A DNA stretch of 64,000 bases, taken from positions 787,001 to 851,000 of the forward strand of contig NC_134684.1 in NCBI RefSeq assembly GCF_024713945.1, read 5' to 3'. The position numbers and the translations under genes are program-made. Below the pieces are notes generated by a model. That model worked only from the letters and a program-made list of their open reading frames with translations. It made no database searches and was not told the DNA's origin. Below are positions 18,808-63,364 of the stretch, in pieces. The stretch comes from Dermatophagoides farinae (taxonomy: Eukaryota > Arthropoda > Arachnida > Sarcoptiformes > Pyroglyphidae). Positions within the stretch are counted from its first letter, which is position 1. Each line of letters starts with the position of its first letter.

Positions 18808-19087
18808 ATACATTTCCATTATGATTATTTTTTCATTTATCATTTTTCTAATTTATTATTTCATTATTTCTACCTAATGTAAAAATATACGATTTTTTTC
18901 AATGTATTTCGAATGTACTCATATTTATTTATTTATTGATATTGATTCAGATTGATGAATTTACTAATAATTAATTGATTAAAATTAAGCTATATTTCAA
19001 TTTTTAAAATTTAAATTCTTTTTCATTCATTCATTTACTCATACTTTATTCTTTGTTTTTTGTTTGTTGTTGTTGTTGTTTATACAG

Positions 19088-22000
19088 AATCCAATACTCA
19101 TCATCATCATCATAATAATAATCAGTATTTGAAAAATCATCAAACAAATGGCAAAAATCAACAACAGCAGCAGCAACAACAACAACATTATCCAGTTATT
19201 GTATTCATTTCCGGTGATTCATATCAAACCGGTACAGGCAATTCATTTGATGCATCAATATGGTCTAGTTATGGACGTGTTATTGTTGTCACATTGAATT
19301 ATCGTCTTGGTGTACTAGGCAAGTTGATATTCATTCATGATTACAAAGCATCTATATTCATTGATCATCATCATTTTTATTATATGTTTATTAAAATTCA
19401 GGATTCTTACCAGCTTTAGTTGATGGCACAATTCGTGGCAATTATGGTCTAATGGATCAAGTGGCTGCATTACATTGGATACAAGAAAATATTGCCGAAT
19501 TTGGTGGTGAACCTCGTAATGTTACACTAATTGGACATGATTTTGGTGCTGCTTGTGTCCATTTGTTAATGTTATCACCAATGGCTAAAGGTTTGTTTGT
19601 TTGTTTGTTTGGATATTGATTCATAAACAGTGTTTATTGAACACACATTGTGATGATTAGGATATTTGTGTGATTGTGTAATCTATTTCTGTTTTTTTCA
19701 TTGATTGATACAATGAATTGAATCGCTCACTGTGTTTCACAATCTGAACATGGCACTAAATCAATGAAAAATTTATAAAGATTACAACAAACAACAACAA
19801 CAACATTCCATTACATTAAAATAAATAGATTCAATAGGTGGCAAGGATATATAAATAATTAGTTTTTTTATTCGTTCTTCTCCTTTCTTACTTGAATTCA
19901 TTGATATATTGATTTGGATTCTGATTGAATCTTGATCATGATGATCATGTTTTCTTGATAATAATGATGATGATCATCATCATCATCGTAATCAAAAAAC
20001 AAACAAAATCTAACAATAACAACAATGAAACAAAACAAAACAAAAAACCTAACCAAACTAAAAAAAAAAAAAGTTTCGATACAAATATTCTGTTTTTGGG
20101 TTAATTTAGCAAATTAACACGCTCAGAACCATTCACTTAGATGTATAATAAAAAAAAAAATAAATCTTGTAGAACGAACAAAAAACAGAAAACAAGATTT
20201 GATCCATACACTCAATCAATTCTTGAAACTTACTTATGGACCAGTTTTTTTAACACTCACTCACACACACACACACACACACAATCACGGTGAAAATCTT
20301 TACCGTTTTTGATTGATTGATGCACTTTTTTTTGAGTGTGTTGAAATCCAACAACAAAAAACGCAAAAAAAAATATTACAAAACGTTAATTATTCTCTCG
20401 ATTCTGATAATGTCTACTGTCTATGAATTGGAAATTATTCTCTTTTTTTTGTGTGTGTGTGTTCATCCAATAAAAATCGATTCATGTGTGTTCTATTTAT
20501 TTATTTGTTTGTTTGTTTGTTTGTTTGTTTGTTGTTGTTGTGTTGTTGTTGTTGTTTTGACATTTCCAACAACTACCACAACAACAACAACAACAGCAAC
20601 AAACTTGTATTGACTTGTATCTATGTATTTGAATTTATAATCTATTCTCTATATCTGTCCATCTGTATTATTATTATTATTATATTCTTTGTTGTCTGTG
20701 TTGACAAATTCCTAGAATTTTTTTTCTTTCTTCCGTTCATATTATATTCTCATATGTCAATGATGATGTAACTGAATGGTTTTTTTTTCTTCTGTAAATT
20801 GTGTAAATGGTAACACAAAAAGCCTATAATCATCATTATTATTATTATTACCAAAAGAGAAAAAAGAATCATCATAATGAATCCCATCAAACTCTGAATT
20901 TTTTTTTTGTTTGTTTGTTTCGCCTATAGGGTTGTTGTTGTTGTTATTGTTATAGTACTCTATGGAAGCCATAAATTCTATAGTTGGTTGATCACTTTTT
21001 GAATTGATTCTGTTGTCGGTTTGTTTTCCGGAGGGGGGGGGGAAGTGGGAATAAAATTTCCCTTTTTTTCCCATATCATAAATATTCATAAAGCTTTACT
21101 TCGTTTTAATTTTTTTTTTGCCACACAACAAAATAGACTCATGGTTCATCATGGTATGGGTAGTGATATAAATTTTTTTTTCAGCTTTTTTTTTTTCACC
21201 CGAACAAATGAAAGTTGAACGACGGTTAAACCTTGATGAGGTCAATAAACACACAACACACACACACAGTGTGAAACCACAATTGTTACAATAGATCCGT
21301 GTGTGTTTAATATTTCATAAGCAGGTGAAAACAAAACAAAAAAATTAATCCTTCGTTTTGGTAATCTATAGAAAAAAACAAAAAGAGCGAAATCATTTGT
21401 CAATCATTCAATGTTTTACTTTACGAAATTTTTTTTTCAAATTTAATTTTTTGTCCTGTTTTTTTTTGTTGTTGTTGTTGTTGTTGCCGCTTGTAGGTTT
21501 ATTCGCTCGTGTGGCCTTATTAAGTGGTTCGGCATTAGCACCATCTGCTATTGTTCGTGATGCTGAAAATAATGCAAGACAATTGGCCAAACAATTGAAT
21601 TGTCCAGTTTATGTAAGTGTAGATTTTGGATATCATTTTCCTCCTTCCACCCCAGCCCCCACATCCCGACCATTCACATCCACATTCTACCTCGTAATCA
21701 TCATTTATTCGATATATATCGATGGTTTGGTCATAATGAAGAGAGAAAATGTCTCGACGTCTTTTTTTTCCATTCTGGTTATATATCGCTCATTGCTTCT
21801 GCTTCTTTTTGCCGATGTTTTTTTTTTTATTTTATTTCGATTGATCATTGATCAGCTGTCGATCGTTTGTTTTGTTTCATTAGTAATGAATCGATCTGGA
21901 ATTTTTTTGGTTTTCTGGATAAGAAGAATCAAAAATCGAAAAGAAAAAACGTCACACACATTTCGATGAGATGGCAATCATTCTAATACTATCGTAGACG

Positions 22001-25000
22001 ATGTAAACAATTGGATTGTGAATGAATGACAAACAAACGGCCCTTGACACCCACAAACAATCTATTTCCACTTTATTCATTAATGTGATCTCTAATTTCT
22101 TTTTATTTTGCTTGATATGCTTTTTTTTATATTTTCGTTTTTCGTTCATTCCATTTTCTTTTTTTTTTTTATAAGGATAATACACAATTAGTTGATTGTT
22201 TGAAAAGAAAACCATTCGATGAGCTTATTCAAGCAATGAATCATATTCACATATCACGTTATCTATCACCATTTGGTCCAATAATCGATGGTATCGTTGT
22301 GGTGGAAGAACCACGTACAATGATGGAATCAATGGTTTATGGACCATTATCATCTGCTGCCTCATCATCATCATCATCTTTTGTATCGTCATCGAAAATT
22401 ACCTCATCATCATCATCATCGTCTTCATCATCACCATCATCTTCAAATTATGTTTTTTTCAAAAATAGTGCCTCTTCATCTGTTTCTTCGGATTTATTTG
22501 CTGCCAATCATTATCATGGTGATATATTATTCGGTGTGACAAAAGTTCAATGTCCATTAGATGTTTTCACTGGTTATGAAGAACGTTATGGAATCAATGT
22601 TGAACGAAGAAATCAGATTGTTCGAACTTTAATACGCAATTTATTTGATTTTCATCAGCAGGTAAATGTGCTATTTTTTAAAAAAATTTTTGTTTATTAT
22701 TAATGTGATTTGTTTTGGGTTGTTTAGACAATTTTCTGGACATTGATCAATGAATATACTGATTGGAGTCGTCCAAGTGAACATCCAATCAATTTATTAG
22801 ATTCTACAATCGATATATTGGGTCATGCATTGATTCTTGCACCATTGATTGAAACCGTTGAGCTTTACGCTAAATCAATGGCTGATCGTTTTCCATTTAA
22901 TACGAACAGTAACAATAACAACAACAAGGATAATACATTCGATTTTGCATATCATTCTCATGATCATTATCAACAACAACAACAAAAACAGGATTCAAAA
23001 TCTGGAAAGATTTTTTTCTATGTCTTTCAAAATAATCCAAAATCTATATTATTGGATTCTTCGACGTCGTTACCAAATTTTGGATCAATAGACAGCAATA
23101 TCTCACCAATGATGATGATGATGACGACTAGTGGCCAAATACAATCAATTGATCAAAGACTTGGATCAATGTTGAATGATGAATTGGATTATTTATTTGG
23201 TGCACCAATTGCTCAACATGTAACTGGTCATTCAATTGGACATTTTCAAACTAATTGGACAACAATGACTGCTGGACATCGACAACAACAACAGCAACAA
23301 CAAGATCTAATATTTGATAGCTTAATTGCTAATGACAAACATCAGGCATCAACAAAATCAAAAATCGCAACAGCTGTAGTAGCTGCTGAACATATTCATC
23401 TTAGCCAAATGATGATTACATATTTTAGTAATTTTGCCAAATATGGGTAAGTTGATGATGTAAAATAAAATGCATTCGTGTAGAAATTCCATTCATTTGT
23501 GTGTATTCTATATACACACACGCATTAACTACTTTGTAAATTTTATATGAATGAATGATTACCACTAGACCATGGAATTTTTCTTTTTCTCTTTATAGAA
23601 CATGTAAATTTTCACATGTCACATGATAATCAAACTACTAAACATAACATATAGGATTTATTATAGTGAATTATATTCATTATATATATTAGTGCACCAT
23701 GCTCCATCATCATCATCATCATCAAGCTCAAAGAGCACAGGTGGACAAATACAAACATGCAAATATAATAATAATTTGGCTAAACATTCACATCATAATC
23801 ATAAACTATCAAAGAAGTCTAATTCTATCTAATAGAATCTATGTTTATAAGAAAGAATCATTTCTCATAATGATTGTGTTTGTGTGCTGAATTTTCAAAG
23901 AGATTAACCGTTCGGTATTCATTATTTTCGTTTTTTTTGGACAATCTTTTTTTTCTAGCCTCATTATTTTTTCCCAAAAACTATTACTATTACTACTACT
24001 ACTACTACTAACGAACTACTAAGAAGGTCGAAAAAAAATTTTTTTTTGACAAATCAATCATCGATTCTTATAGACACAAATTCTTTTGAGTCCAGTGTTT
24101 CCAACACATTGACTAGCAAAGTATTTTTTTTTATTTTTTGATAAAGCTTGAATTTGAAGAGAGTTGTGTACACTAGCAATGACGTTAAGTAAATCAGTAA
24201 TTTGTGGTCAAACCAAAACAAAACAAATCATCATCATCAATCATTTATCGTCTATGGTAACAGATTGAAGATTCAACAACAACAAAAAAAAAATTTTTTT
24301 TTTTATTCGTTGCTCAGCAAGGTCAATTTAGTTACTTTTTTTAATTAAAAAATTTTTTCTTAATCACAAAAGAGAGTTTAGGATAAATAATTTCTGGCAA
24401 CAAATTCTGGAGAGTCTCAGATTCTAATTATTCTTGCCAAATGTCTGTATGATATCTGAATTGGCTGAATTCAATTCTATTTTTTTTATCGGAAAAAATA
24501 AAACATTTCCTTTATCCTTGAATGAAAACTAAATTTTTCTTATTTCAACAATTTCATTTTTTTTCGTTTTCAAAAAATAGGAATCCAAATCATCCTACTG
24601 GTTATAGTAATGATAACAACAACAACAACAATGGCAACAATGGCAATTATGACAAAAAAAATTATCCTTATTCTCACAATCATCATCATCATCATAATAT
24701 GGATGATTCCGCATCATCATCATCGATTCGGAATGAAAATAATGAATTCCGGACATCCTTGCCATCACCACAAACACCATCATCATCATCATCATATCTA
24801 CTTAATTGGCCTCAATATACTGTTGGCCAACAACGTTTTTTACTTATAGGTTAGTTGTTATGAAGAGTAAAAAAAAAAATTGAATCGAATCCATTTCCAT
24901 TGTTGAAAATTCATCATAGATTCATTTATGGAATCGATGGAATCTTTAATATTAAATTCCTATTAACTTTCTTTTTCTCTTTTAATGATATGTTTAGGAT

Positions 25001-34293: not shown

Positions 34294-37200
34294 ATGAATC
34301 CCAGTTACCTTTTTCAATATCCTCATCATCATTATAATTATCAACAGCAGCAGCAGCAGCAGCAACCAGTATCTTTGATGAATCATCATCATCATCATCA
34401 TCATCATCATGAACAACAGTCAACAACTGGAAATTTTGATGGTGATAGTGAACAACGACATTTAACCGCTGCTGTTGCTACATTTAATCATCATACAATT
34501 CCAACGACAACAAATACATCAATCATTGATTATCGATTATTAAATAGTCATCATGTTGCCATTGCTGGTGATCATTGTTCAACAAATTATCATCATCAAC
34601 AACAACAACAACAACAACCGAATATGATATATTCGCCATCATCATCAACAGATTCAGTTTCAGATATTGGATCAAATAATGAAAATTTACATTCATCAAA
34701 GAATCAACAACAACAACAAACATCGTTTACTATTGAAACGACCACGAATGATGGTATAAACAACAAAACAACGAATACAACATCAGCTTCATATCAAAGA
34801 TCATTATTAAAACTACAACATCGACGATTAAATGAAATGACATTAAAATGGTTGGATGATAATTATGAATTACGTGAAGGTATCTGTTTACCAAGATGTT
34901 TAATATATCGTCATTATCTACAATTTATGCGTTGTAATGCACCGGATTCCAAGCCAGTTGGTGCAGCTGCATTTGGAAAGGTAATTGTATCGTGTGTGTG
35001 GGTGTGTGAAATGTTTCCATTTTCCATTTGAAAATTTTTCAATTTTTCCCATTTCTGCTTTAGTTGGTTAGACAAAAATTTTCAAAAATCTCTACACGTC
35101 GTCTTGGTACACGTGGTCAATCGAAATATCATTATTATGGTATTAGTATCAGGCAAACATCACCATTATTTCATGAACAAACATCATTGGTCTCTTATCA
35201 AAATTATGGTGGATCACCATCAAGTTTGGCATTACAAGATTTACGTTATCATCAACCAAAACAACAACACCACAATCAATCCACAAATTATCATCATTCA
35301 CCCAATAGCTATAATATTAATGATGATGATCATGGTCGAAATCATTATTATTCTTATTATCATCATCATCAACAACAACAACAACAACAGCTGGATCGAA
35401 ATGATGAAATCGATGCCACAAACACGTCCAATATGAATGGATATTTTTTATTACAATCAACAACAACAACAACAAGCGAACAACAGTCGATAATCGATAA
35501 TCAAAATTGGTTCAATTCAATTGAATGTCAAATTCAGCAATCACAACAACCACAACAACAACAACAGCAGCAAAAATCATTAATAATTAACTGGTAAGTT
35601 GACGATAATCGAAGAATATGCTAGATCTGGATTAATATTTATTCAGTGATAATCTAGTGAATAAGAATTCATCGTTTATTGATGAATCATACCATTATCA
35701 TAAACAATCGTCAGAGAATTTTGCACCAATGACACCAAATGCAATCAATTATAATAATGATGTTGACATTTCATCATCAGTTGATGGCATTGGAATATAT
35801 CGACATTTACCATTGATAAATAATGATGATGATGATGATTCAAAACGTAATGGTAGCCCAATAGAACAATTTCATTTGAATAATAATGATAGTGGATATC
35901 AAGATTTTTCGATGATTGACAATAATAATGAATTCCATGATGAATCGAATACAATGATAACCAGAAAACAACAACAATCAATGAAATCGGAGGAATTAGT
36001 AGATGAATGCCGGAAAATTTCCTTAGAAATTGAAAATGAGATTGATGAATTTATTTGTCAACAACAACAACATTCCAAGCCATCATCATCATCATCATCA
36101 GTGACAATAATGGCAATAAATTATTTTCAAAATATGTATCCAAAATGTGATGATTTTGAATATATTCGACCCACAGATATTTCCTCGCAGATTGTATCAA
36201 CATTTTTATTAATGTATCGTAGCCATTGTGAAAGATTATTTGATCTATTTCAATTAGCAAATGTGGATGAAATGCGTAGATCGATACAAAATTTTTGGCA
36301 TCAAATGCCAACACATTTAGCATCATTTGTGTCATCATCACCATTTTCATATCAAGTAATTAAATTTATCGATACATTATTATATAGGGTAAGTGTTTGC
36401 GAAATATTCGATTCAATTTACAATTTACAAATAATGATTATCATTCAAAATAGACAATGGAAGATTTTTTTTCACAATTAAGTTTATTACCAGAAATGTC
36501 CGATATATTCATCCAAGATATTCGTCATATAATTGAAAATCTAGAACAATGGTTATATGCATCAATAATGGATCCATCTGGTCAAATGTTTTTGATTATT
36601 TTTCAACATCGTCATGATATGGAGATGGCAGCAGCAGCAACAACAACAACAACCATTTCACAATGTCGAATAAATGAAATTCAAAATGAAGTTCAAGAAC
36701 ATTTGGTTCGTTTTTTAAATCATAAATCACGAGTATTCAAAGATTTCAGTACCGGTATGCTAAAACAATTGGAATTTATCAAAATGATCAAAGTAAGATT
36801 GACAATGAATCAATAAAAAAAATCCATGATTGATTTCTAATTCTTTCAATCGTTCAGGAATGTCGACAAACCATCAATCAATTGCGAAGACAAAAATGTT
36901 CAAAAGATTATGCAGAAATGATTTCCGAAATACAATCAATATCGATTGGTGTTGGAACAATAAATTGTTCACAACAACAAGTATTACCAATGTATGATAT
37001 ATTGGCCACTGATCCATTGGATTTAATACAAATGGATGAAATCCTAAAACAAGATCCCACTGTTGTTGATTCGAATGATGAAATGAATATGAAAATAGCA
37101 CCAATTAATAATAATTTCAGCAACAACAACAACAACAACAACAAGCGAAAAAAATTATGGATCGATTCATTTTTTTGTCAATGTATTACAGCCGAATCTG

Positions 37201-38433: not shown

Positions 38434-40450
38434 TTAAACACAAGTATCATCATCATTTAATTGATTGTCATTATCAAATGTTTGATGATGATTATGATTA
38501 TTAACCATTGATAATAAATTGCTTTCTTCTTCTTTTTCTTCTGAATGATGTAAACTTTTCATTGATGGTGATGATGAACTTGACAGTTTTTTCAATAATT
38601 TTATTCTATTTGTTGTTGTTGTTGTAGTTTTTATTGAATTTTCACAAGTATCAGCAGCATTATTAAAATGATAATGATTAACCATTGAAATTTTTTCTTC
38701 TTCTTCTCCTTCATCATCATCATCATCATCATTGTGATGTTGATTATTCATTGTATGTATAGTTTGATTGGAATAAGAACCAAATGTATTTGATCGTATT
38801 ATAGAAGAAGGTGAAAATCGAACGTTTTCCATTGTCATAGGTGGTGGTGTTGGCTGCTGCTGCGGCTGCAGCTTTGTTTGTTGTTGTTGTTGTTGTTGTT
38901 CGATTTTCAATTGACCCTCTACCATTGAAGACCAATTAGATTTTTGATGATTATGTTGATTATTGTTGTTAATATTTTCATTATTTGGACCATTCAAAAT
39001 TGTTGAATCACCACGATTCATCATCATCATCATTGCACCACCATGATGACGATTAAATGGTATGGTAACTGTTCTACCTGAACAACTCGATGCTGCTGCT
39101 GCTGCTGATGTTGATGATGAACGATATTGTCGACGATTACAAAATTTCCATCGATTTAAACGTAATAATCGAAGAAATTTCAAACGAAATTTTCTTCCAA
39201 ATATACAATAAATAACAAAATTGATTGATGAATTGAAACAAACCAATACATTGGAAAATATTGTCATCAATTCCAAAACAGGTGTGCCAACCTGAAAATA
39301 TGGTTCCAAACAATTGACAATGAATGCCGGTGCATTGCAAGCTATTTAAGGAAAATGAAAAATATTAGTAATTCGTAAAACATTCATTTCATTTCATAAA
39401 TACCAATAAATATAGCTACAATGGCGATAAACATTGATGCTAAATGTAATTCACTTTGACGTGCACGGGTTAATTCATTACGATTTTGACTTGCTTTTTG
39501 TACGCTAAAATAAATTTTTACATTCAATGCAGCCAATAATGATAATGGTACAATATAATTGAATGTCAGATTCAGGAATATATAATAAACTTGATAATAG
39601 ATTTTATTGTGACGAAATTCTGTCGCTCGAACTTGATTACAAGTGGTATCCACTTCAGCAAATCGTGGTAAATTGAATAAAAATGCCATAATGGATAAAA
39701 TTGACAATGCCCATATTGCACGTGCACGTGTCGATAATGTCATTGTCATTAATGGATGACAAACAGCTAGATATCGTTCAATCGTTATCAGACATGTTGT
39801 CCATATTGATCCAGTTTGTGCAATCAATGCCAGTGGATAAACAATTTTCACATAATAAACTAATGGTGAAAAAGGCATTTCAATCATGAATGGACATCCA
39901 TTGGTAGCATTTGAATCAACAACATCATCAACAATGAAATTCCAATTGCAGAATCGTTGATCATCATCAACAATGGTGGTGATATTGTTTGTCAACGATA
40001 ATAATATTTGTAAATGTTTTTCTAACCATAAATGGTCTGGTACAATTTTTGCATTATCAAAATGATCCATTATATTGAGCGTTTTATTCATTAAATGTAA
40101 ACAAATTCTATTTGGTTGCATTCGATTAGACCAAGGAATTAGAATATTATTTTGTTGTGATGATAATTCAATTGATGATTCATCAGAATTTTCTTCAATT
40201 TCTTCCATAAATAATGGATCCGATATCATTGTATATGAATTTAAACGAAATAATAAACGACAATATTGCCAATCAAATTGTGATCTATAATCATCATCAT
40301 TGTTGCTGGAATGGTCATCTTTCGTCGTTGTTGATTGATCCACCGATAATAAACATTGATTAATGAATGCAATGAATGAATCATTCAATGCATGATTCCA
40401 TGATATTATTGAATCGTCATATTGATGTGTATGCCGATGTTTAAATGGTA

Positions 40451-40481
<31 letters not shown>

Positions 40482-43400
40482 CGATGGTAATGGATATTTA
40501 ATATTTTTTTCCGATAATAATGTTGGCACTGATAGTGTCGTTCCAATTTTATTCATCATTTGTTGATTCATCATCAAAGGCATATCATCATCATTGTCGC
40601 CATTCAACGATGGGGATTGTGTCATCATCATTACATTCATCAATGACATTGACGTGTTGGAATTATTATTATTATTTATAATAATGGCAGAAGAATCATC
40701 ATTAATAATTTGATTTCTTGATTGTGATGATGATGATAATGGTATTGGCGGTGGCGGTGAGGGTGGTGGTTCACCCAAACGATTTGGATCATCCATAAAT
40801 GAAATAAATTCATTTGTTGTTGTTGTAGCCGCTGATGTTGCTGCTGCTGCTGCTAATATTTGTTGTTGTTGCTGTTGTAGCTGATAATCATTTATAGCCG
40901 GTATATTGAGCATTAATACAGAAAATATTAATACACCATTATCATATAATGTCAATACGGTTAAATAAATGTTGATTGTTGATTTTCGCATGTCTAAATG
41001 TAAAAAACGAAAGAGAAAAGAATTAATGAATGAAAAAAAAACTTTTAAATCATGTCATCATTTCATCAGTAGCCCAAAAATAAATTCCAATTGAATCGAT
41101 AAATGTGTATTTTAATGTAAACCGATGTTGAACCGTATAAGGAGAAAGTCTACAGCAAACATTACATAATAATGTGTGCTGCAAGAGTGAATGTTTTCAT
41201 GATTGTTAAACATGGATGAAAAACAAAAACAAAAAACAAAATTAATTATTCAATCAATGAATTGAATTCGATTCGATTCGATTCAAGTTCTACACAATTA
41301 AACAACAAAATAAAAAACAAACAAACGAACAACTAGACAAACAATTTGTGCTTGAATAAAAGATGAAAAACATAACATTAACATGCTATTTTTAAACTTT
41401 TAGCAATCTCACCATCATCATCATCATGATGATTATTTTGGTCAGTAGTTGGTCAAAAAATAATAAAATTGATGATTACTGATATATCAAAATTGGAATT
41501 TAGATTTTTTTTTTGTTCTTTTTTGTTTGTTGTTCCAAAATTTTTGCTTCAAGCAATTAACAAACTTGTCTCATAAATGTTAATTAAATGTTAACGAAAA
41601 TCGAAAAAAATGATGAAATTAATGATAAAAAAAAAATTCTTCATGACGATGATGGACAATGAATGTGAAGAAATATTTGATTTTTCTCAGATATGATTGT
41701 TGTTGTTGTCTGTGTGTTTCATACAGTTTCCATTTATAAATAACAATTTTGCACTGAATTTATGAATGCTTCAATTGGCTGAATTTTTTTTTTTTTTTTT
41801 TTTTGAAAAAATAAACTTGAAAAAAGCGCCAAAAGCTATATCGATTTTCATTTTGAATACTAAAATACATATATACAAATCATAGCAACCAGAGTGAATT
41901 TTTTCTTACGTTTTTTGTCAAAAAAAAAAAAAAATTTTTTTTTACATTTTGAAAATTTTTCTGTCAATCAATTTGTCACTACATTTTTTTTTCTTTGTTT
42001 AAATTTTTTTTGTATTTATTTTCAATGGCTCATCATCATCTTAAAAAAAAAAAAAATTTTCATCCCAAAATATATGCCCCACGGGTTCCAAGAACCCTGT
42101 TCATTCATCATTTTTTCCAATAATGGTATGGACTCTTTCGTATTATTTTTAGCGTCTCCATCTATCTCTTTCTGTGTGTGTGGGTGTGTAGTTTGTCTTA
42201 TGGTTTTGAATTTCATTTCATGACTGAAAGTTCCTTCTTTCTTTATTTTTTTTCTATTATTGATGCTAAAATCAATGAAGCAAATTTTTTTTTGCGTTGC
42301 TGTTAGTATAGTCAATTTAGAGCGATTCTTGTTGAGAGTGAAATAGAAAAAAAAAATCCAATAACAAACACCAATACACACACACAGAGTATCAAATTCC
42401 AAAAAATGTAAAAAAAATGATTGGACATATTCCTCTCTTTTTTTTTGGTTTGTTTCTTCTTCGGAACGAAAAAAAAGAAAATCAAATAAAAAACAATTCA
42501 CCACCATTACCGAGGAAAAAAAACCACAAATTATTTGTCATAATCAAGGCCATGTTGATTGGTTGTTGCTGTCAAATCTATTCGATTTGTATTTCGTAAT
42601 TTGAATCGAAGACAAATAACTAGTCTATCACTCTGATGCTGTCAAACTAGCTATTTGAAATCAAAATGGAAACAAAAAAAAACACAAACACACACACACA
42701 TCAATGATGATTATTGCCCTCAAGGGAAATCTCGTTTTTGTTTTGTTTTGTTTTGTATTTCGAAATTTTTCATTGTAATCCAATTCATAATATTCCTTCC
42801 TTTCATTGGCTTGAATCGTTGGTCCATTTGCTGCTGCTGCTGCTGCCGCTGCTGCTTATGATCAATACCAATCGACTAGAAATGATGGTGAGAATAATGA
42901 TAATTCTGTGAAATGATAATGATAAAAAGTTCTGCTACTACTGCTGCTGCTATAGCCGAAAAATATTCATACGAAAAAAAGAAAGTTTTTCTTTAGACAT
43001 AAAAAAAATGTAACCTTTAATTTCATTTCAAAAGAAAAAAAGAAAATTGTTTTCTAATGGACTCAGAATGTGTGGATGCCATTTATTTTTTCTTCTTGTT
43101 TTATTTTCTAGCACACACACGCACATAAAGTCATACAGAATTCAGAGAATATTCTTGGCGGAAAAAAAGGAAAAAAATCTAAACCTATGCTAAATGGTAT
43201 GCTGTTTGTGTTTTGTTTTACCCAAAAAAAAAAATAAAAGAGTGCAATCTGGTACATCCAGGAATCTAATCCGAAAAAATGGAATGTCTACGTAATAATT
43301 TTCTTCTTCATTTTCAGATTTTCACTTTTTCATCTCATCCATAATAATCAAAATGTTGCACTTTTTCATATATATTTTTTTTCAACATTTTCATTTATAA

Positions 43401-45208
43401 AATACCTGAAACAAACACACACACACACACAAAAAAAACATTTCATTTATTAAAATGACATACACATGCATAGTCAGCAGAAAATGAAAGAATTGAATTA
43501 AGTTGCAGAATTGAAGATGAAGATGAAGATGAATTCATTGCAGACAAAACATATATGTACAAACTTTAATGGATTTTTTTTTGTAGATTTTTGGATCTCT
43601 TTTTTTGCTTTCAACAGAATGATCGATATTGATTTGTGATTATTATCGAACCAGTGTAGGCAGAAAAGAAAAGCCAGAATAAAAAAGAAAATAAAATGAA
43701 ATGAAACTAAACGAGTGAATGGAGAAATTGACAATTAAATAGCACACACACACAAAGACACACAGACAATCAAATGACTATAATTGACTATTTTCGATAA
43801 TTACAACTCACTATCTATCTATCTATCTATCTATCTATCCATCAGTATCGATTTGATTTTCAAACAAACAAAAAAAAAATTCTCCAATCTATCATTACAA
43901 TAATAATAAAAAACAGAGGTAGATAGATCATCATTTGATGCTATCAACAACAACAAATCAACAACAACCATCATCAACTTTGTCGAGATTCTGAAATGAC
44001 AAGAAGAAGAAGAAAAAAACAGAAAACAAAAACTGACTTTTTTTCTCATGGGGAAATAGATAAAAAAAGAAGAAGAAACAAAAAAACGTTAACTAACGTT
44101 ATCATCATCATCAATAAAGAATTTGTGATGATTATGCAAACGTTGGTTGTGTTTGTTTGTAACTTATACAAATATATATATAAAAAAAATGACATTCGAT
44201 GATGGCCAAATTATATTTGAAATGAATGGGGAGAGGTAGAAAAAAAAACTAGACACGATAGCTTGTAGTAAAGCACGCAACAACAAAAAAAAAAACCAAA
44301 CACGAAACCGACAACAAAAAAAAACAAGTGTGCGTGCGTGCCTTTGTGGAACAATAAGATTCACTTTATTTTACTTTACTTTACATGTAACAATTCATTC
44401 ATTCAATCATTGATGATGATGATGATGAAAAAAGAATCAAAAAAAAAGAGCATCATCATCATCATCATCAATAAATATTTTGCTTTCACTTTAATTTTAT
44501 TTCTCATTCATTCATTCATTCATCACTTTTTTTTAAACACAAACTTGAACACTATATAAAATGCAATGATAATGGAAAACCAATTTAGTTTTTTTTTCTA
44601 CCGTTTTTTCTTATTCTTCTTCTTCTTCATTTTTTTTACACTCAATTCATTCATTCCAAAAGCAAAAGCAAAAAAAAACAGAAAAGAAATGTTTCTGCCT
44701 TTCTCTCAATCATTCGAAGTTTTGATGATTTTTTTTGCGAAAGTCTCCCAAGTGAAATAGTAATAGCTTTTTCTTATTATTATTTACTGGCAATCATCAT
44801 CATCAACATCAACATCAACATCTCAATCATTGATGATGATGATGATGACCCATCAACCAATTATCAACCGTTGGCTAATTGAGCGTTTGTTTTTTTCCTT
44901 TTTTTTATCGTGGCAATTTCATCATGATAAACGAATGAAAATTGATCCATTAAATTGAACTTTGAACAATCTCATTATTATGTAAGATAAATGATGATGA
45001 TGGTTTTTTTTTGTTTAAATTTCAGAATTGATTAACGAAAATTTCAATCATGTGGCGACTATATTAATAACGAACCTTTATAAAAGATCAATATATACAA
45101 TGTGATCATGTTGAATATGAAACCAACAATGACGATGAACATATTGAAATGGCCATAACAATAATATTTCAATGTTAATGACCATACAGGTGGCTCTTCT
45201 TTGTCCAT
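38434..45208 (-). CDS. FMRFamide-receptor-like GPCR (form A, proximal first exon)
   Basis: Exons 45076-45208, 39404-40993 and 38434-39341 join in frame to 876 residues. It is a class A peptide GPCR. Helix 1 is in exon 1 (FIVIVGFIFNMITLYIL). Helix 2 opens exon 2 (MRKSTINIYLTVLTLYDN). Helix 3 is IVYPLALIAQTGSIWTTCLI, followed by ERYLAVCHPL in place of DRY. Helix 4 is IWALSILSIMAFLFNLPRF. Helix 5 is FNYIVPLSLLAALNVKIYF. Helix 6 is split by intron 2 (SMFIAIVAIFI/ACNAPAFIV). Helix 7 ends NSSINFVIYCIFGRKFR in place of NPxxY. IAQT...ERY.AVCHPL and IACN are typical of insect FMRFamide receptors. Between helices 2 and 3 lies an insertion of ~330 residues (about 80-408) with Ser, Asn, Gln and Asp runs and glycosylation sequons (NDS, NKT, NIT, NAT). 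The tail of ~240 residues is Ser/Gln-rich. The exact ligand cannot be told from sequence. Confidence 0.85.
40994..45075 (-). other. First intron of GPCR form A
   Basis: Starts GTTCGT after AAAG and ends TTTAG before ACATGCG. It is noncoding, with long T and A runs, CA, GCT and CTAT repeats. I see no additional helix-1-like exon in it. Confidence 0.7.
43810..43839. repeat. (CTAT)n microsatellite
   Basis: Seven to eight tetranucleotide units inside the GPCR intron. Confidence 0.9.
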
Positions 45209-48200
45209 TATTGAAAAACAAAAACAAACAAAAAGAGACAAAAAGACACACGCAAAAATGAAATTGTACACAAAAAATGACGATGACGAATTGATGAAAA
45301 TGAGTATTCGTTTGTTTGTTTGTTTAGTTTGGTTTATTTTTATCAAAAAACAAAAAAAAAATTGTAATTATGGCTCAAGGTAATAATGTGTGTGTGTGTG
45401 TACGGTGGGGGCAGGTGGTGATAATGATAATCTCTGGGATAAGAAAATTTACAAAAATGCCTGCAATCATCATTGGCGTCATATTTTTTTTTTAATTTTG
45501 TTTTGCATGGAATTTAGTTTGGTTTGGCGTTTTTTTTTCTATTCAAAATTTACGACTTATGATTACACGTCATTAAAAATGGAGATTATTGGACAATTGT
45601 TTTATTTTCATTTAGCAAAAAAAAAAAAAAAAAAAAAAAAAAATGACACTAATACCGTAATGTTGATGCACCAAGCACAAAGTAAAAAAAAACAAAACAA
45701 AACAAACCAGGAACCATTTGGTCTGAATATATATATATAGATATATGATGCAAAATAAACAAAAGAAAAAAAAAACAATAAATTCATAGCGATTTCATCA
45801 TCATTCATAATCATCATCATCATCATCATCATTATTATTATTATTATGATTATTATGGGAATAATAATCATCATTAGTGCAAAACAAAACAAATTTGAAG
45901 TGGGGCAAAAAAAAAAAGATTGTCAGATTCTTCCATATTCCTTGAGTGTACTATAGTGATACTATCGTTTGTCTCAATAATAATTGATTGATACATACAT
46001 GGAATTATTTTAAGCTAAACAAACATAGAAAAAAAAAACGAAAGACGAAGAAGAAGTAAAAAAAATGATTGAGATTCATTCTGTTGGCCAAATTGTGTGA
46101 ATGAACATTTGATGATGATATACGATCGACCATTATCATCAAACTAATAATAATATTTCTCAATCTTTTTTTTTCTTTGCTCGTTAACATCGTTTTTGTT
46201 ACTCTTCTTTTTCTTCTTCTTCATCATTTTTTTCCATCTTTCTTTATGATCTGTGGTTGGATGGATGGATCATCATCATCATCATCATCCATATTTAATG
46301 TTTATTTGCACTCTAATGGCTAGAAAGAATTTCATTTTTTTTCCAATTTCACATTTACCCAGTAGCCAGGTAATCAGGTAATTTGGAAAATTTAATAAAT
46401 GGATAAATTATCAGTAGATTCTAAAAATGAATATAAATTAATGATCATCATTGCGCTATTCATTTAGTTCTTTTTTTTGGTTAAATGAAAATAAATTTAT
46501 TCTACATACAGAATAATAAAAAAACGACAAATCATGTTGAAGAAAAACATGTTTCGATTCTGTGAACAACAACAACAACAACAACAGCGAGAGAATAATG
46601 ATTTCTAATGATCCCAATGGGGATTTCGTTTCGTTTCGTTTTGTTTTTTAATTTATTCATTTTATCATTTCAATGATTGTGTTGGAACATTGATCCATTG
46701 ATGGATAGATAATCGTGCACATCGTATATGAATGGATAAATATCACTGGCCTGGCTTAGCTCTAAATCCGTTAGCTCCATACACTTTTTTATTTCCATAA
46801 CACAACAAAACACAAAAACATTCAGGCTAGCAGGTTGGTCATTGGTAAAAAAAACGGATGTTGTTGTTGTTGTTATTGTTGTTGTTGTTGTTGTCCCAGG
46901 AGTGAACATTGTTTAACTTTTTTTTATTCGATCTGGTAAAAAAGCAACAACAACAAAAAAAAGTTGTACAAAACTAATCTGTGTTTTATCATTTGATTTT
47001 TCCAAGTTTTTTCAAAATTGGAAATCCAAAAGTAACAAAAAAAAAATTCCAATTCTCGAAAAAAAATACCGAAACGAACAAATTACACAAAAAAAATCGG
47101 AAACTTTCTGCTTTTGTTATTGTTGTTGTTGTTGTTTCTAATGGAAAAACTACAAATTAATTTTTCATTTATTTGTACAACTTTCGTGTTCAATTCTGTG
47201 ATTGTCATTTGTTTCATCTTTGTTTTCGGAAGTTCTTTGCTTTCTTTCACAATCATTATTGGTGGCTTGAAAATGTCAAAAAAAAAAATCCAAATCAAAA
47301 TCGAAATTGAAGACTCAAAATAAAAATTTCACTCGTTCTTGTTGTTGCCGAAATAACCAACAACCATACAATAAAGTAAAATTGTGGAAACAGAATCAAA
47401 TTTTGTTACTACAGATCATCATCATTATTGAGAATTGTTTGTTTGTGATTTTCAAATTCTTTTTCTATGGCTTGCTTTGTCGTTTTTTTCTCTCTCTCAA
47501 TTTTACAGAATCGAATTTTTTTTTCATCACAAACAAACAACAAACATACATGGAAACCTAACAAACGAACAAATTAGTAATGAAAAATAAAACCAACAAA
47601 CAAGGCCAGACGTTTTGATTTCATTCTTCAGTCTATTTATAAACGTTTCCGAAAATGAAATGAAATTTTTTTTTTGTTGCTTGTGTGTGGGTGGTTGGTT
47701 GGTTAGTTAATCAGGAAACAATGAACAAGATTATTATTATAAAATTTGTCATCACCATCATCATTTTGGTTAGTTGACCAGAAACAAAATCAAGAAAAAA
47801 AAATACACATTTATTGTCCAACCACAGCCGTCGCGACACATTTTATTAGATGAAAAAAAAAGAAAAGAAAAAATTGATTATCGTATGTGCTTGTATTTGT
47901 GTAATCGTTGGAATAAATGAATGAATAAATAAATAAATGGATCGTATAGAATTCCAGAATATTCTGCATGACAATAATGAATGAATGAATGATTAAATGA
48001 ATTTTACACTGATTACTGTCTACATTCATCAATGCAATGATGTTGATATTAAATTTTTTTTTCCAAAGTAACAAAATCACTGATTAAATCGCCATCATGG
48101 CAATGATTTTGATTCTGATGGCTACTTTTTTTTCTCGTTTAGTTATCATGGAAATCAAAAAAAAAAAAAAAAAAAAAGAGAAAGAGAAAAAGAGAGAATT

Positions 48201-48509
48201 TTTTTTTCTTCAAGCTAAAAAAAAAATCATCATCATCAAAATTATTGAGTACATTGAAACTTCCATTTGCTCATTAAAATTCTATGGAAAACGTTTAGTT
48301 TAGTTAATGAGAAAAACAATTTGATCCATACAAATGAACAAACGATGGATGAAGAATTGATCAAAAATGAATTCATTATCAAAAAAAATAATGAACCAAA
48401 ATTTGATTTGATCAAAAAAAAAAATTCAAGTAATTGAGTTTGATTGACATTTTAGTTTTTTTTTAATTGAAAAAAACAAGAATTTTTTTAAAAAAAAATC
48501 AGAATTTAC
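45209..48509. other. DNA between the two GPCR first exons
   Basis: Noncoding by inspection. It would be intron for form B and promoter for form A. It contains CAT/GAT and GTT/CAA runs. No core promoter element can be singled out. Confidence 0.6.
45617..45643. repeat. Poly-A tract of 27
   Basis: Uninterrupted run of A, one of the longest homopolymers in the window. No retroelement sequence is recognisable on its 5' side, so it is probably a simple homopolymer. Confidence 0.95.
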
Positions 48510-48615
48510 CTTTACTTGAATTCAATATGTACAATGTTAATGTATTGCCCAATAGACCAAAAAAACAGATTATATTCGACAGAATTCCATATGAATAAAA
48601 TTTGAAAATCTCCAT
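48510..48615 (-). CDS. Alternative distal first exon of the same GPCR (form B helix 1)
   Basis: The ATG at 48615 is the first Met after an in-frame TAA at 48628-48630. It opens a 35-codon exon: MEIFKFYSYGIL, then NIICFFGLLGN, then TLTLYILNSSK, ending AAAG|GTAAAT. The donor phase (1) equals that of the proximal exon at 45076-45208, so joining to 40993 restores the same GAC-ATG-CGA codons. The resulting receptor has 867 residues. GLLGN is the classical helix-1 Asn motif. Over 31 aligned positions the two exons share about 13 identities, including Y.YG, the helix Asn and TLYIL. This looks like a duplicated, mutually exclusive first exon with its own promoter. No transcript evidence is available here. 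Confidence 0.7.
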
Positions 48616-50017
48616 TTTTCTTTTTTTTTAATTCTTTGATTGATTTGATAACTTTGTTTGTTTGTTTTAAATACACAAAGACAGACGTACACACACATAA
48701 ACAACAGTAAATTGAGCAATGATTTTTTGGTAAATTACCAATTTTCACTGTTTCGTTGTGTTTTTTTTTCTGACCAAAAAAAAAAAAAAAAAAAAAATGT
48801 TCACCACACTTTTATCAACAACGACGACGACGACGACAATGACGACGATGATGATGATGATGATGATGACAAATGTAGATGAAAATTTGACAATTTCTTT
48901 CTCACTTTATAATGTTGGTGTGTGTGTGTGTGTGTGTTCGCTTCATCGATCAGAGGATTAATCAATTTTTTTTTCACATCCAATTTGAAAATTTTTTTTT
49001 GCCGCTTCTTTTGATTGAAATTTTTATTAATTCCACCATTAATGTGAAAACAACGACAGCAGCAACAACAACAACAACAACAACTGTGAATGGCTGAAGA
49101 TAGAGATAAAGGTGTAAAGTCGTTGATTTTTCCAAAAAAAAAAAACACTATCGATCAGATTGAATTACTGTTACTGCTGTTGTTGTTGCTGCCACCAAAG
49201 TTAAGAATAAATTAATTATTCATTCTCATTACTAAGACGAATAATAATAATAATAAAAATCGATCATCGATAATCGTAAAATGTGTGATCATCGTCATCA
49301 TACACAATTGATTACACATACATTGGCACATTTATATGATATACAACAAACAAAACACTAAATAATAATAATGGTAAAAACTTCCGATAAACTTTTCATT
49401 ATTTTTGGATCAACAACAACAATAACAAGAAAAGAATCAAATCATCATCCATAGTATTTTTACGATGATGAAAATGAACGAATGATTATGATGATGAACT
49501 AATGATGATCATAACCACACTAAGCGAACAACCGAACAACCAACCAACCAGCCAACCAACCATTCATCTAATCCATTGATGAAGCCATCTCGTATATATA
49601 TGGTTGTTACATATACACATGCAGCATATATACATGGCGCTTATTTTTATTTTTTTTTTTTTTTTTTGGTCGAAAATACGGATTCTGCGTCCTGTGTAAC
49701 TAAGTGTATATGATAAACGGAACAGGATAGTGAATGGTTTGGTTCATAGATTGATTGGATAAATGAAGATTTTTTTTCCTCTTTCACTCTCTCTCTCTCT
49801 CTCTCTCTCTCTAGTGATGGTGATTCAACATACGTACAGGTTAAATGCGCAGTAGAGATACACACATCGATGAGTGAACCATCATCATCATGATGATGAT
49901 GATCAAAAAAAAAAAAAAAATTCGTAATGATCTCTCAAATGATTATTAATTTGATGTAGATGGAATGAATAAATTGCTGAATCGCATACTTCTTTTTTTT
50001 CTGGATTAGACACATAC

Positions 50018-53944: not shown

Positions 53945-56900
53945 TTAAATTCCAGATTCAGCCATTGCTTCGTCATCTGTGACAAAAAAAAAGAAATTGT
54001 CGATGCATTATAGGTAACAGACATGGATAACTTTTTTTTTTTGGTTCTTACCTTCATAACCAGGATTTTCGTGCATTTCTATTAATTCTTCTTTACCTTC
54101 CAGTACACTCATCAAACATTCGTGAATACAAATATATTGTTGCTATATTTGTTTTGATCAAATAAATGTGATAATAATAATCATTAGTTGTTTTTTTTTT
54201 TGTAAATCACCACTTATGGAACATAATTATCACACATACCTCATTTTGAACCATCCAGACACGTTCTTTACGCATTTCATGAACAATACCAAATATATCG
54301 ACCGTATCATATTTTTTAACATGTTGTAGAATTCGATCCAATGCAATGAATGTACCAGATCGGCCGACACCAGCCGAACAATGTACAATAATTGGTTTAT
54401 TATTATCGGCAGTGATTCTTTCACGAAATGATCGAACAAATTTTACTAATGTATTCGGTGGTTCTGGTACACCGAAATCTGGCCATGTTGTGAAATGAAA
54501 ATGTCGAACAATACGATATTGATCACCCTATATGTATGGTGAATGGAAATCCAAAGAGAAAAAAATTTAGCTAAATAAACAAATGAATGATCAGTAAGCG
54601 CTTACCCTCATCACTTTGAATTCCGAAATTGTCCAATCTTGATATTGTGTTTCATTCAAAATGGTCACCTGTATATTGCCATAGAATACTGGCTGTGTAT
54701 CGTATGGCCAATAACGATCACATTTTTCTCTACCTTTTTCAATACATCTTGTAAGCATAACAATTGCACGAGAATTCTGTTCCCAAACCATACGCCAGAA
54801 ATCATCACGTGTTGAATGTAATGGACCTTGTGTGACAATAAATTCTCTTGGTGAATTAAATCCCGGTATATAGTTGGAATTAATATAATCTGATCCTTCT
54901 TCATCATCGGTGGGTAATAATTTAACCCGTGAATGATCATATGGTAAAATGTTAGTGAAACGATTTTTCGGCCGATTAACCGGTAAATCAGCCGCATTAC
55001 ACGGCCTATCACGTCCAACATGTTTCAATAGTTCAAATTCTTCACTAAAACGAAAATCTGAATCAGCCGACATCAATCTGAAATGATCTGCGAAATCTTT
55101 GAATTTTATCGGTCTATTAGTGATCATTTCACCTTCTACAATCGATAAATTATCGCCTACAGCACTACCCGCTGCATTACCCAATACATTGACACCACCA
55201 AGTCCAGTGCCATCTTTCAACATGATTGGCATTCCATTCGGTCCAATCGTTGACATATGATGATGTGGATGTTGATGAATGAATTTTCCACCATCTTTGA
55301 ATGGACCTAATCGATTTCGGCGTAAATAGACAACCAGAAGAATCAACAAGGTAAGAAATATAAATGGAGCTAATATGGATAGATAAAGTGCCGTATGATC
55401 TGGATCTGTAGACATTGCATATGAATAAACGGTATCGGTGAATTTTTCGGCCGTTGTAAATGCTCGTATTTTGATTTTATATGTAGAACCCGGTTTTAAT
55501 GGTCCATTACAATATTTTGGGGAACCACCTCGAATCGATGTCGAATGTCGTAAATGTTGTTTAATATCACATTGTTCAGCACCAATAACATAATCTTCAA
55601 TTTGTGAATTATTAAATGGATAAAATGGATCATTTGTTTGATATGGTGGCCATACACTATAATCTTGTATATCGAACCATGATGATATATCTAAAACATT
55701 TGAATTGACTGTATCATCTTCAGCTACAATGATTGCATACGATTGAATTGAACCGTACATATTGGAGAAATAATTTTTACGAAATCGAATTCGTATCGTT
55801 CTAGTACTGTGGCCAACTTCAGTAGGAAATACAGTATCGGCTGGTGCTGGTGCCGACCATATTGGCATTGTTTCTTCCCATACGGCTTTATGACCGGGTC
55901 CAACTTTAGTATGAGCTTGTATTTGAAATACATATGTTTTACCCGGTAATAGATTATAAATAGTACCTTGTGTTTCATATGGTTCAAATAATTGATGTTT
56001 AGTAATTATTGTACCAGTTGATTTGATCCAATAGACAATTTTATAGCCAGTAAGAATACCATTCATTTCAGATTGTGGTAATGACCATTGTAATGTTATT
56101 TCATTTGGTTTTACATCCACGGATTGAAAATACGATACTTTGCCTGGTACTGATTCAAGTGTTAGAAATGTCTGTGATATTGGTGTCGATCGTAACATTG
56201 TCGATGTACCATAACCGGATAATGTCGTAACGATGAATGTATAATTATTATGTGGCTTTAGATTACGATATTCAATCTTTTCGATTAATGTAACATTCAC
56301 GACAAGTGTTTTTTCATGTGGATCAAAATATTGTACTTCATAACCATCTTTATCACCATAAGGTACATCCCAACTTAACGTAATCTCTGAATCAGTGATT
56401 GATAATCCATTTATATTTCTTATTGGTTCTGGATAAAGACGTGCTTGACGTTGAATAGGCACAGATAATGTTTGACCACTTATAGTCCATATGGAAAGAT
56501 TATATAAACGCCCGGGGATTAGATTATCGAACAAAACAAAACGATTTGTATCATTCCATTGTTTTTCTTGCGATGGTATTGTGGTGCCCGAAAGTTGAAA
56601 ACGATAACGATCAAACACAACGTTTCTTAACGGTGTAGGCGTATATTTAATGCCCAAAGTTTTTGTTTCATGTTCACCAACAATTACATTGATAACTGAA
56701 TCGATAACAGGAACTATATTGATGGGTAAATAAAAATTAGAATTTTCGAATCACAACAACAACAAAATAATCACTTACTTGTTCGTACTTGGACACCGAT
56801 TCCTTCGGAACGAAGTTTAAAACTTATTACATAAAAACGAAATGAATATTCTTCACCAGGTTTTAGATCCTGAATGAAAACGGTGATCAAATCACCTGGT

Positions 56901-61754: not shown

Positions 61755-63364
61755 ATGGAGAATTTAACATTAAAGATTGGTTTTATCAATGTAAGTTATT
61801 AATTTTTTGGTAATACAGAATCGAATCATTTGATTTTGGATTATATTTTCATTAATTCCACATTATATATAGGTATTACCATATACATGGCTTAAACTTA
61901 ATCATTCATCAACATCTGGACAATATTCAGTAATCGGTGGTATTGAAACACAATTATGGCAACTTGCAAGTGAATATTATAATTTTTCCATTGAATGGAT
62001 AATTGAACCAAATAGTCATTTTGGTGCACAATATGAAAATGGATCATGGTCAGGATTGATTGCAGCAATAATGAATAATGAAATTGATTTAGCTGTTGGT
62101 GGTTTGATGCCAACTACTAAACGTTTGGAAGTAGTGGATTTTCTTTTTCCATATGATCATGATCAATATACATTCGCTAATCAACCATTACCAGAAACTG
62201 GAAGTCATATGGATCTTTTGATACGACCATTTCATTATAAAGTTTTCATTTGTATTTTATTCACTGTGATTCTTTTCTGGTTATTCAATTGGATTGAAAA
62301 AAAATTGCAACAACACCAGCAACAACAACAATATTCAGAAACAAACAATCATCATAATCTTTTATGGATCAATTTTTGTCTGCTTGTACGTCAACCATAT
62401 CATTGGATGTCATCAACTGGTTCGGCCATTCGTATTGCATTGATTATATGGGCATTTTCAAGCATTATATTGGTCAATTTTTATCTTTATACACTTTGTT
62501 CAATGTTAGCATTACCTTTAATCGATAAAATCGATACAATCAATAAATTTATTGATGCTTGTAACACTGGTTATCTAATACCAATGGCCATCAGTAATAC
62601 AAGTGTTGAGGAATTTTTTCTGGTTTGTATCAAAGAATACATTTCACACTTATATTGAACTTAATCAGCTTTTTTTTCTATTGGAATTTAACAGAATTCA
62701 CAAGTGGATACAGTACGTAATCTTTGGTCATCACATCTTATGCTCCTACCAAATTATTCTTTACCATTCACATTATTACTTTCATCATCTAATCGTCCAT
62801 ATTATGCATTGATTGCAGCACGTAAAAATCTATTATTTCTTCAAAGTGTAAAAGGTAAAGATAAAATTTATCTGCCACCATATACGGAAAAATCTTCATT
62901 ATTTCCATCACTTTTGGCTACACCGGTTCAAAAAGGTTTCCATTACAAGCGGCCATTCGAACGATTGTAAGTTTGAATTAGTTATGAATAATTTCGTTTT
63001 GTACATCCATTTAATAACATCGTTATCGAATAGCGTATCTCGTTTAATTACGACAGGAATAATGACACATTGGGAAATGCTTGATTCAATTAAATTAAGA
63101 TTTTATCTGAAACGTGGTAAAGGTGGTAAATTTCAAACTTTTTTCGATAACACATCAATGTCACAGCAAGATGATGAAGAAAATGTTGATGATAATAATG
63201 AACATCGAATTGATGATATTAATTTTATCGATTTCACTATTCAACATTTACAAAGTATTTTCTATTTATATCTGAGCATGATCATCATTTCTTCATTGAC
63301 GTTTATATCAGAAATATTCAATCATTTTCTTATGTTTGGAAATTTTATCTACGATATACCATAA
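61755..63364 (+). CDS. Divergent ionotropic receptor (iGluR/IR family)
   Basis: Exons 61755-61790, 61873-62622, 62695-62966 and 63034-63364 join in frame to 462 residues. The ligand-binding lobe S1 is GFINVLPYTWLKL, GGIETQLWQLASEYYNFSIE, then WSGLIAAIMNNEIDLAVGGL. PTTKRLEVVDFLFPY follows, which keeps the Arg that contacts the ligand in glutamate receptors. Membrane helices are at ~136-153 (VFICILFTVILFWLFNWI), ~200-222 (IALIIWAFSSIILVNFYLY) and ~427-448 (FYLYLSMIIISSLTFISEIF), with a short pore segment between the first two. The second lobe runs between helix 3 and helix 4. No amino-terminal domain is present and no signal peptide precedes the lobe. It fits arthropod IRs, which are chemosensory or synaptic cation channels. 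The ATG follows a long CT tract that could instead be an intron end, so an upstream signal-peptide exon is possible. Confidence 0.82.

Follow-up and report, generated by a model that had tools for sequence, protein, structure and literature searches.

Can a G-protein-coupled receptor (GPCR) exchange its first helix by choosing between first exons, with the rest of the protein left unchanged? The question is raised by a gene on the minus strand of a 64,000-nucleotide stretch of DNA from the mite Dermatophagoides farinae (bases 787001-851000 of contig 8, hereafter the window; genome 62.4 Mb in 22 contigs, G+C 29.7%). Two exons of this gene, which we call A and B, each start with an ATG, each encode one candidate first transmembrane helix (TM1) and can each be joined to the same exon 2. 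This two-exon feature is real and non-random. We put at roughly two in three the probability that it reflects an old tandem duplication of the first exon which now yields two helix-1 isoforms of one receptor.

Two candidate first exons and one receptor body

The sequence-only reading of this DNA had located both exons, with their ATGs, their phase-1 ends and their AAAG/GT donors (a slash marks an exon boundary throughout), and all of these proved correct on re-reading (Table 1). Exon A reads MEIFKFYSYGILSNIICFFGLLGNTLTLYILNSSK/G and exon B MDKEEPPVWSLTLKYYCYGHFNMFIVIVGFIFNMITLYILIFYK/G, and they would provide outer tails of about 10 and about 20 residues, respectively. Exon 2 has the acceptor TACATTTAG/ACATG and the donor ATTG/GTATTT and meets exon 3 in phase 1. 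Either first exon fits onto position 40993, as had also been proposed: splicing in silico keeps the frame intact there and gives an A-2-3 product of 867 residues and a B-2-3 product of 876.

We scanned both strands of the window for 31 open codons with an in-frame ATG and a phase-1 G/GT end, and scored each such candidate against a helix-1 profile whose training set was 49 further TM1 segments from the mite's own genome (53 loci fetched, minus two without Asn at the expected place and four with stops, plus two paralogues). Exon A (10.6) and exon B (-2.3) rank first and second of the 125 candidates; the third (-3.2) is the membrane span of the adjoining phosphatase. The simulated control comprised 4.05 Mb of third-order sequence, read on one strand and modelled on a stretch that still contained A and B. 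Among its 2419 candidates a single one reached the profile score of B, none reached that of A, and none was similar to either exon at a BLOSUM62 score of 59. The earlier observation of two ATG-started helix-1 exons holds. No third copy of the helix is present among the eight best phase-1 stretches on the minus strand between 41000 and 54600.

The receptor body is recognizably class A. With the insert in the first extracellular loop (ECL1) and the C-terminal tail removed from the queries, exons 2 and 3 match Pfam 7tm_1 at 75.9 bits from profile position 18 onwards, and therefore lack the helix-1 part. Adding exon A raises the match to 81.6 bits from position 1 and adding exon B to 80.6 bits from position 2, both isoforms being well above the gathering cut-off of 30.5 bits. 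Similarly, the score against the solved chain of somatostatin receptor 2 (SSTR2, 7wic_R) rises from 42.8 bits without a first exon to 56.6 with A and 51.0 with B. Class A receptors are marked by Asn1.50, Asp2.50, E/DRY at the end of TM3, CWxP in TM6 and NPxxY in TM7, in a numbering anchored in TM1 on Asn1.50. Here, Asn1.50 is present in both helices (GLLGN in A, GFIFN in B), and the spliced product has Asp2.50 (LYDNG) and the TM3 motif (TIERY). The exact CWxP and NPxxY motifs are absent, with CNAP in TM6 and NFVIY in TM7 retaining their Cys, Pro, Asn and Tyr. Cys3.25, which makes the usual disulphide between TM3 and the second extracellular loop, is replaced by Val, and by Tyr and Phe in the two nearest paralogues; class A receptors without Cys3.25 exist, so its loss does not exclude membership. 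The gene had been called a peptide GPCR, a description that fits the nearest solved chains, SSTR2 and GPR139, and is weakened by aminergic receptors, which score as well. A tentative placement would be in the FMRFamide-receptor, sex-peptide-receptor or GPR139-like group.

A second peculiarity lies in exon 2. ECL1, from 2.66 to 3.21, runs to 345 residues in a single open frame, compared with 19 and 11 residues in the two nearest paralogues. It carries six N-x-S/T sites and five Cys, and a Pfam search with the insert gave no match. This very large loop contrasts with an outer N-terminal tail of only about 10-20 residues. The C-terminal tail in exon 3 is long as well: 262 residues if the count starts at the Asn of NFVIY.

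Common origin and probable later constraint

The last 31 residues of A and B align without a gap and are identical at 13 positions. The BLOSUM62 score of this alignment, 59, exceeds the best match of either exon to any of the 49 other segments (50 for A, 35 for B), and no shuffle of B reached it against A in 100000 trials. Because pairs drawn from the other TM1 segments score as high in 61 of 1176 cases, the value speaks for relatedness and not for uniqueness. The two exons are thus homologous, adjacent and equal in phase and aligned length, and each is the best match of the other among the segments compared. For exon 2, by comparison, no second close copy was found in the genome: 17 candidates were scored, and identity does not exceed 38% in any of the remaining matches. 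The proposal of a tandem first-exon duplication is therefore well supported, and a diverged, old event is the best reading of these data. At the DNA level 38 of 93 positions differ (12, 11 and 15 by codon position), and with differences spread over all codon positions the duplication does not look recent. We also compared the DNA flanks of the exons, which score 56 on the 5' side (shuffle maximum 31) and 36 on the 3' side (shuffle maximum 34; 100 shuffles each), and set these values aside because shuffling breaks up the T runs that are common at this locus.

A duplicated exon need not be a used one. Only A might serve the receptor, B being a duplicate left behind whose frame is open by chance or which has recently died, an explanation that we consider unlikely. 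It draws strength from the relation of the exons to the rest of the family: against the two nearest paralogues (contigs 10 and 3) A scores 50 and 44 and B only 29 and 32, so that A appears to be the more conserved of the two and B the faster-changing one. In both of these paralogues TM1 and TM2 lie in one open frame, and they therefore have no intron in the first intracellular loop. For a relic, B has nevertheless kept a great deal, namely its ATG, reading frame, Asn1.50, phase and donor GT, despite the DNA differences from A. When neutral substitution was run until the DNA had diverged equally far, the frame stayed open and the protein stayed as similar as observed, or more so, in 52 of 20000 runs starting from A and in 118 of 20000 starting from B. 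Such rarity argues for constraint on both exons through much of their history; it would speak for past constraint and not for present-day use of both. In addition, of the three frames codon usage favours the annotated one in each exon, by a score that penalizes stops in the other frames. Compared over 35 codons with non-coding stretches that are open, B falls in the 97th-98th percentile and A, lower, in the 87th-94th, which counts against a dead exon.

The residues common to A and B (1.31, 1.33, 1.35, 1.36, 1.42, 1.46, 1.50, 1.53-1.57 and 1.61) hint at what may have been preserved. Taken at 100 degrees per residue, the helical moment calculated for identity lies no more than 25 degrees from the direction of Asn1.50 (permutation P = 0.051, 0.049 and 0.026 over three spans). 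The pattern suggests, and no more than suggests, a conserved core-facing side and a diverged lipid-facing side.

Several observations weigh against two functional helix-1 exons of common origin. First, the test of the helix face is weaker when weighted by BLOSUM (P = 0.10, 0.18 and 0.08). Second, B has Phe at 1.49, where, among the 51 TM1 loci of this genome that have Asn at the expected place, Gly precedes it in 43 and Phe in none, and its donor, GTTCGT, departs from the usual consensus at +3 and +4; both features would also suit a decaying copy. Third, the profile score of B is modest: a low-complexity stretch at 48810 scores 6.4 if the ATG and G/GT conditions are dropped. Both exons, moreover, lie below the 5th percentile of the training set (33.8), far enough to make the receptor an outlier of its class. 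Finally, a gapped local alignment of A and B as DNA scores 28, hardly more than the maximum of 27 in 200 shuffles, so that the case for their homology depends on aligning the proteins without gaps.

The position of A invites a different doubt. It lies 7.5 kb from exon 2, upstream of B, and could be part of another gene, or of a tandem receptor copy that has since vanished, and never reach exon 2. We regard this as quite improbable. No second close exon 2 was found in the genome. The 7tm_1 profile search, which gave at least 151 matches in the genome, counted per exon, and which misses short exons, found nothing else of the kind in the window. Furthermore, A resembles the family more closely than B does, and its phase suits the junction at 40993.

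Probable use of the two exons and the surrounding locus

The sequence upstream of each exon bears on how transcripts could begin. In-frame stops lie just before the ATG of A, making that ATG the likely start; the 150 nucleotides upstream of B contain none. We scanned for YAG from 400 nucleotides upstream to 30 nucleotides inside each exon. The nearest YAG is 225 nucleotides upstream of B, in a pyrimidine-rich stretch. For A the nearest are at 132 and 154 nucleotides, the latter behind a T run and likewise in a pyrimidine-rich stretch. It is plausible that separate promoters drive the two exons as alternatives, and a shared untranslated 5' exon would serve as well. Most likely, A and B are two first exons that are picked either through two promoters or through splicing from one untranslated exon.

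Least probable of all, in our judgement, is that B acts as an internal cassette which adds an extra helix in an A-B-2 transcript, or modulates receptor output in that way: the pyrimidine-rich tract immediately before B, the missing upstream stop and an in-frame join at ATGGACAAAG/AAG through an acceptor inside B (908 residues) would allow it, but that acceptor ends in AAG, with a poor base at -3 by the usual consensus, the YAG nearest to the ATG of B in the scanned stretch is distant, and two consecutive TM1 helices would probably disturb the topology.

Under the duplication reading, then, a class A GPCR gene would long ago have gained a tandem copy of its first coding exon, and both copies would have kept their start codon, a single TM1 with Asn1.50 behind a short outer tail, and their phase-1 donor. 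Whether transcripts start at A or B or are spliced into either, they would continue into the common exon 2, giving two full seven-transmembrane (7TM) receptors that are the same from the first intracellular loop on and differ in helix 1 and the outer tail. From this arrangement we infer that both exons are used, that promoters or 5' splicing make the choice, and that the choice may affect membrane insertion, trafficking and ligand entry. The stronger proposal, that these are two long-maintained, interchangeable TM1 modules with the core-facing side kept and the lipid-facing side changed, each completing a full 7TM receptor, strikes us as an even bet.

The rest of the window contains parts of other genes (Table 1). 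Upstream, the neighbour of the GPCR gene is a receptor tyrosine phosphatase. On the other side, plus-strand open frames past the exons of an RFX-type transcription factor reach 38321, about 110 bases from the stop of the receptor on the minus strand. The carboxylesterase-family exons at 19060 and 22743 we take to be perhaps neuroligin-like. Elsewhere in the genome, the best locus resembling a group 2 allergen is a relative of Der p 2 and Der f 2 without matching either exactly, as would be likely in an astigmatid mite.

Table 1. Exons of the receptor gene and other features of the window, in window positions; the ECL1 coordinates were derived by hand from residue numbers.
Feature	Position	Strand	Content or support
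Exon A, first coding exon	48615-48510	minus	ATG, TM1 (GLLGN), end AAAG/GTAAAT, phase 1
Exon B, first coding exon	45208-45076	minus	ATG, TM1 (GFIFN), end AAAG/GTTCGT, phase 1
Common exon 2	40993-39404	minus	TM2, giant ECL1, TM3-TM5, start of TM6
ECL1 (2.66-3.21), inside exon 2	39861-40895	minus	345 residues
Common exon 3	39341-38434	minus	Rest of TM6, TM7, long C-terminal tail, stop
Receptor tyrosine phosphatase, fibronectin III repeats	54591-56657, open frames to 58816	minus	Pfam Y_phosphatase, fn3, PTP_tm
RFX-type transcription factor exons	34294-35031 (RFX_DNA_binding), 35657-36481 (BCD_RFX)	plus	Pfam
Carboxylesterase-family exon	19060-19419	plus	Pfam, 50.8 bits
Carboxylesterase-family match, under cut-off	22743-23450	plus	Pfam, 22.8 bits
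Ionotropic glutamate-receptor-like exon	62056-62658	plus	Pfam Lig_chan, 34.7 bits

Recurrence and comparison with known systems

As a control for recurrence we took about 8 kb upstream of six further GPCR genes with a late start of the 7tm_1 match, picked by hand irrespective of any intron in the first intracellular loop. One strong TM1 (profile 29.9-44.5) is present in five of the six and none in the sixth, and no gene has two strong TM1 stretches among the best matches, up to five per region. The control also returned weak stretches without the GN motif that score up to 8.2, above B, so that it could miss a copy with the divergence of B. In collections of viral contigs and of genome contigs, 13 and 49 stretches fit a search pattern, and no relative is encoded by any of them.

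Known alternative starts in GPCR genes mostly change the tail or leave out TM1. Alternative first exons as such are ordinary; for a swap of helix 1 in a class A GPCR, or for two TM1 exons in one such gene, the open-licence literature that we searched, judged by titles and the openings of abstracts, offered no precedent. If true, the arrangement described here would be an instance of modularity at the level of a single helix, achieved through the choice of first exon. It would also supply a natural pair of receptors, identical elsewhere, with which to ask what helix 1 contributes to membrane insertion, dimer contacts, ligand entry and trafficking. Finally, models of mite receptor genes with a single first exon may then overlook isoforms.

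Three known systems resemble this locus in part. In the opioid receptor genes OPRM1, OPRD1, OPRK1 and OPRL1, as PMC8159799 describes them, exon 1 encodes TM1, and starts between exons 1 and 2 lead to 6TM (or 1TM) forms, as nothing replaces TM1. The mite gene would likewise join alternative starts to the same exon 2; unlike in the opioid 6TM variants, its other first exon would provide a full TM1. A parallel for duplication followed by divergence is the Drosophila gustatory receptor locus Gr39a, where, according to PMC2204066, duplicated and diverged large exons are alternatively spliced to shared small exons, with exon gain, loss and pseudogenization. The mite locus would have the same combination of duplicated, diverged alternative exons and shared exons.

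The likeness to Gr39a and that to the insect receptor ETHR, variable on its 3' side where the mite receptor would vary at TM1, each stop at the part that is exchanged. Gustatory receptors fall outside the class A GPCRs, and the swapped exon of Gr39a makes up most of the protein, not one helix, while the variable part of ETHR is its TM6-TM7 exons. What the mite gene would share with ETHR is a GPCR made in two splice forms: PMC3510462 describes ETHR-A and ETHR-B as forms of a neuropeptide GPCR that occur in different central neurons.

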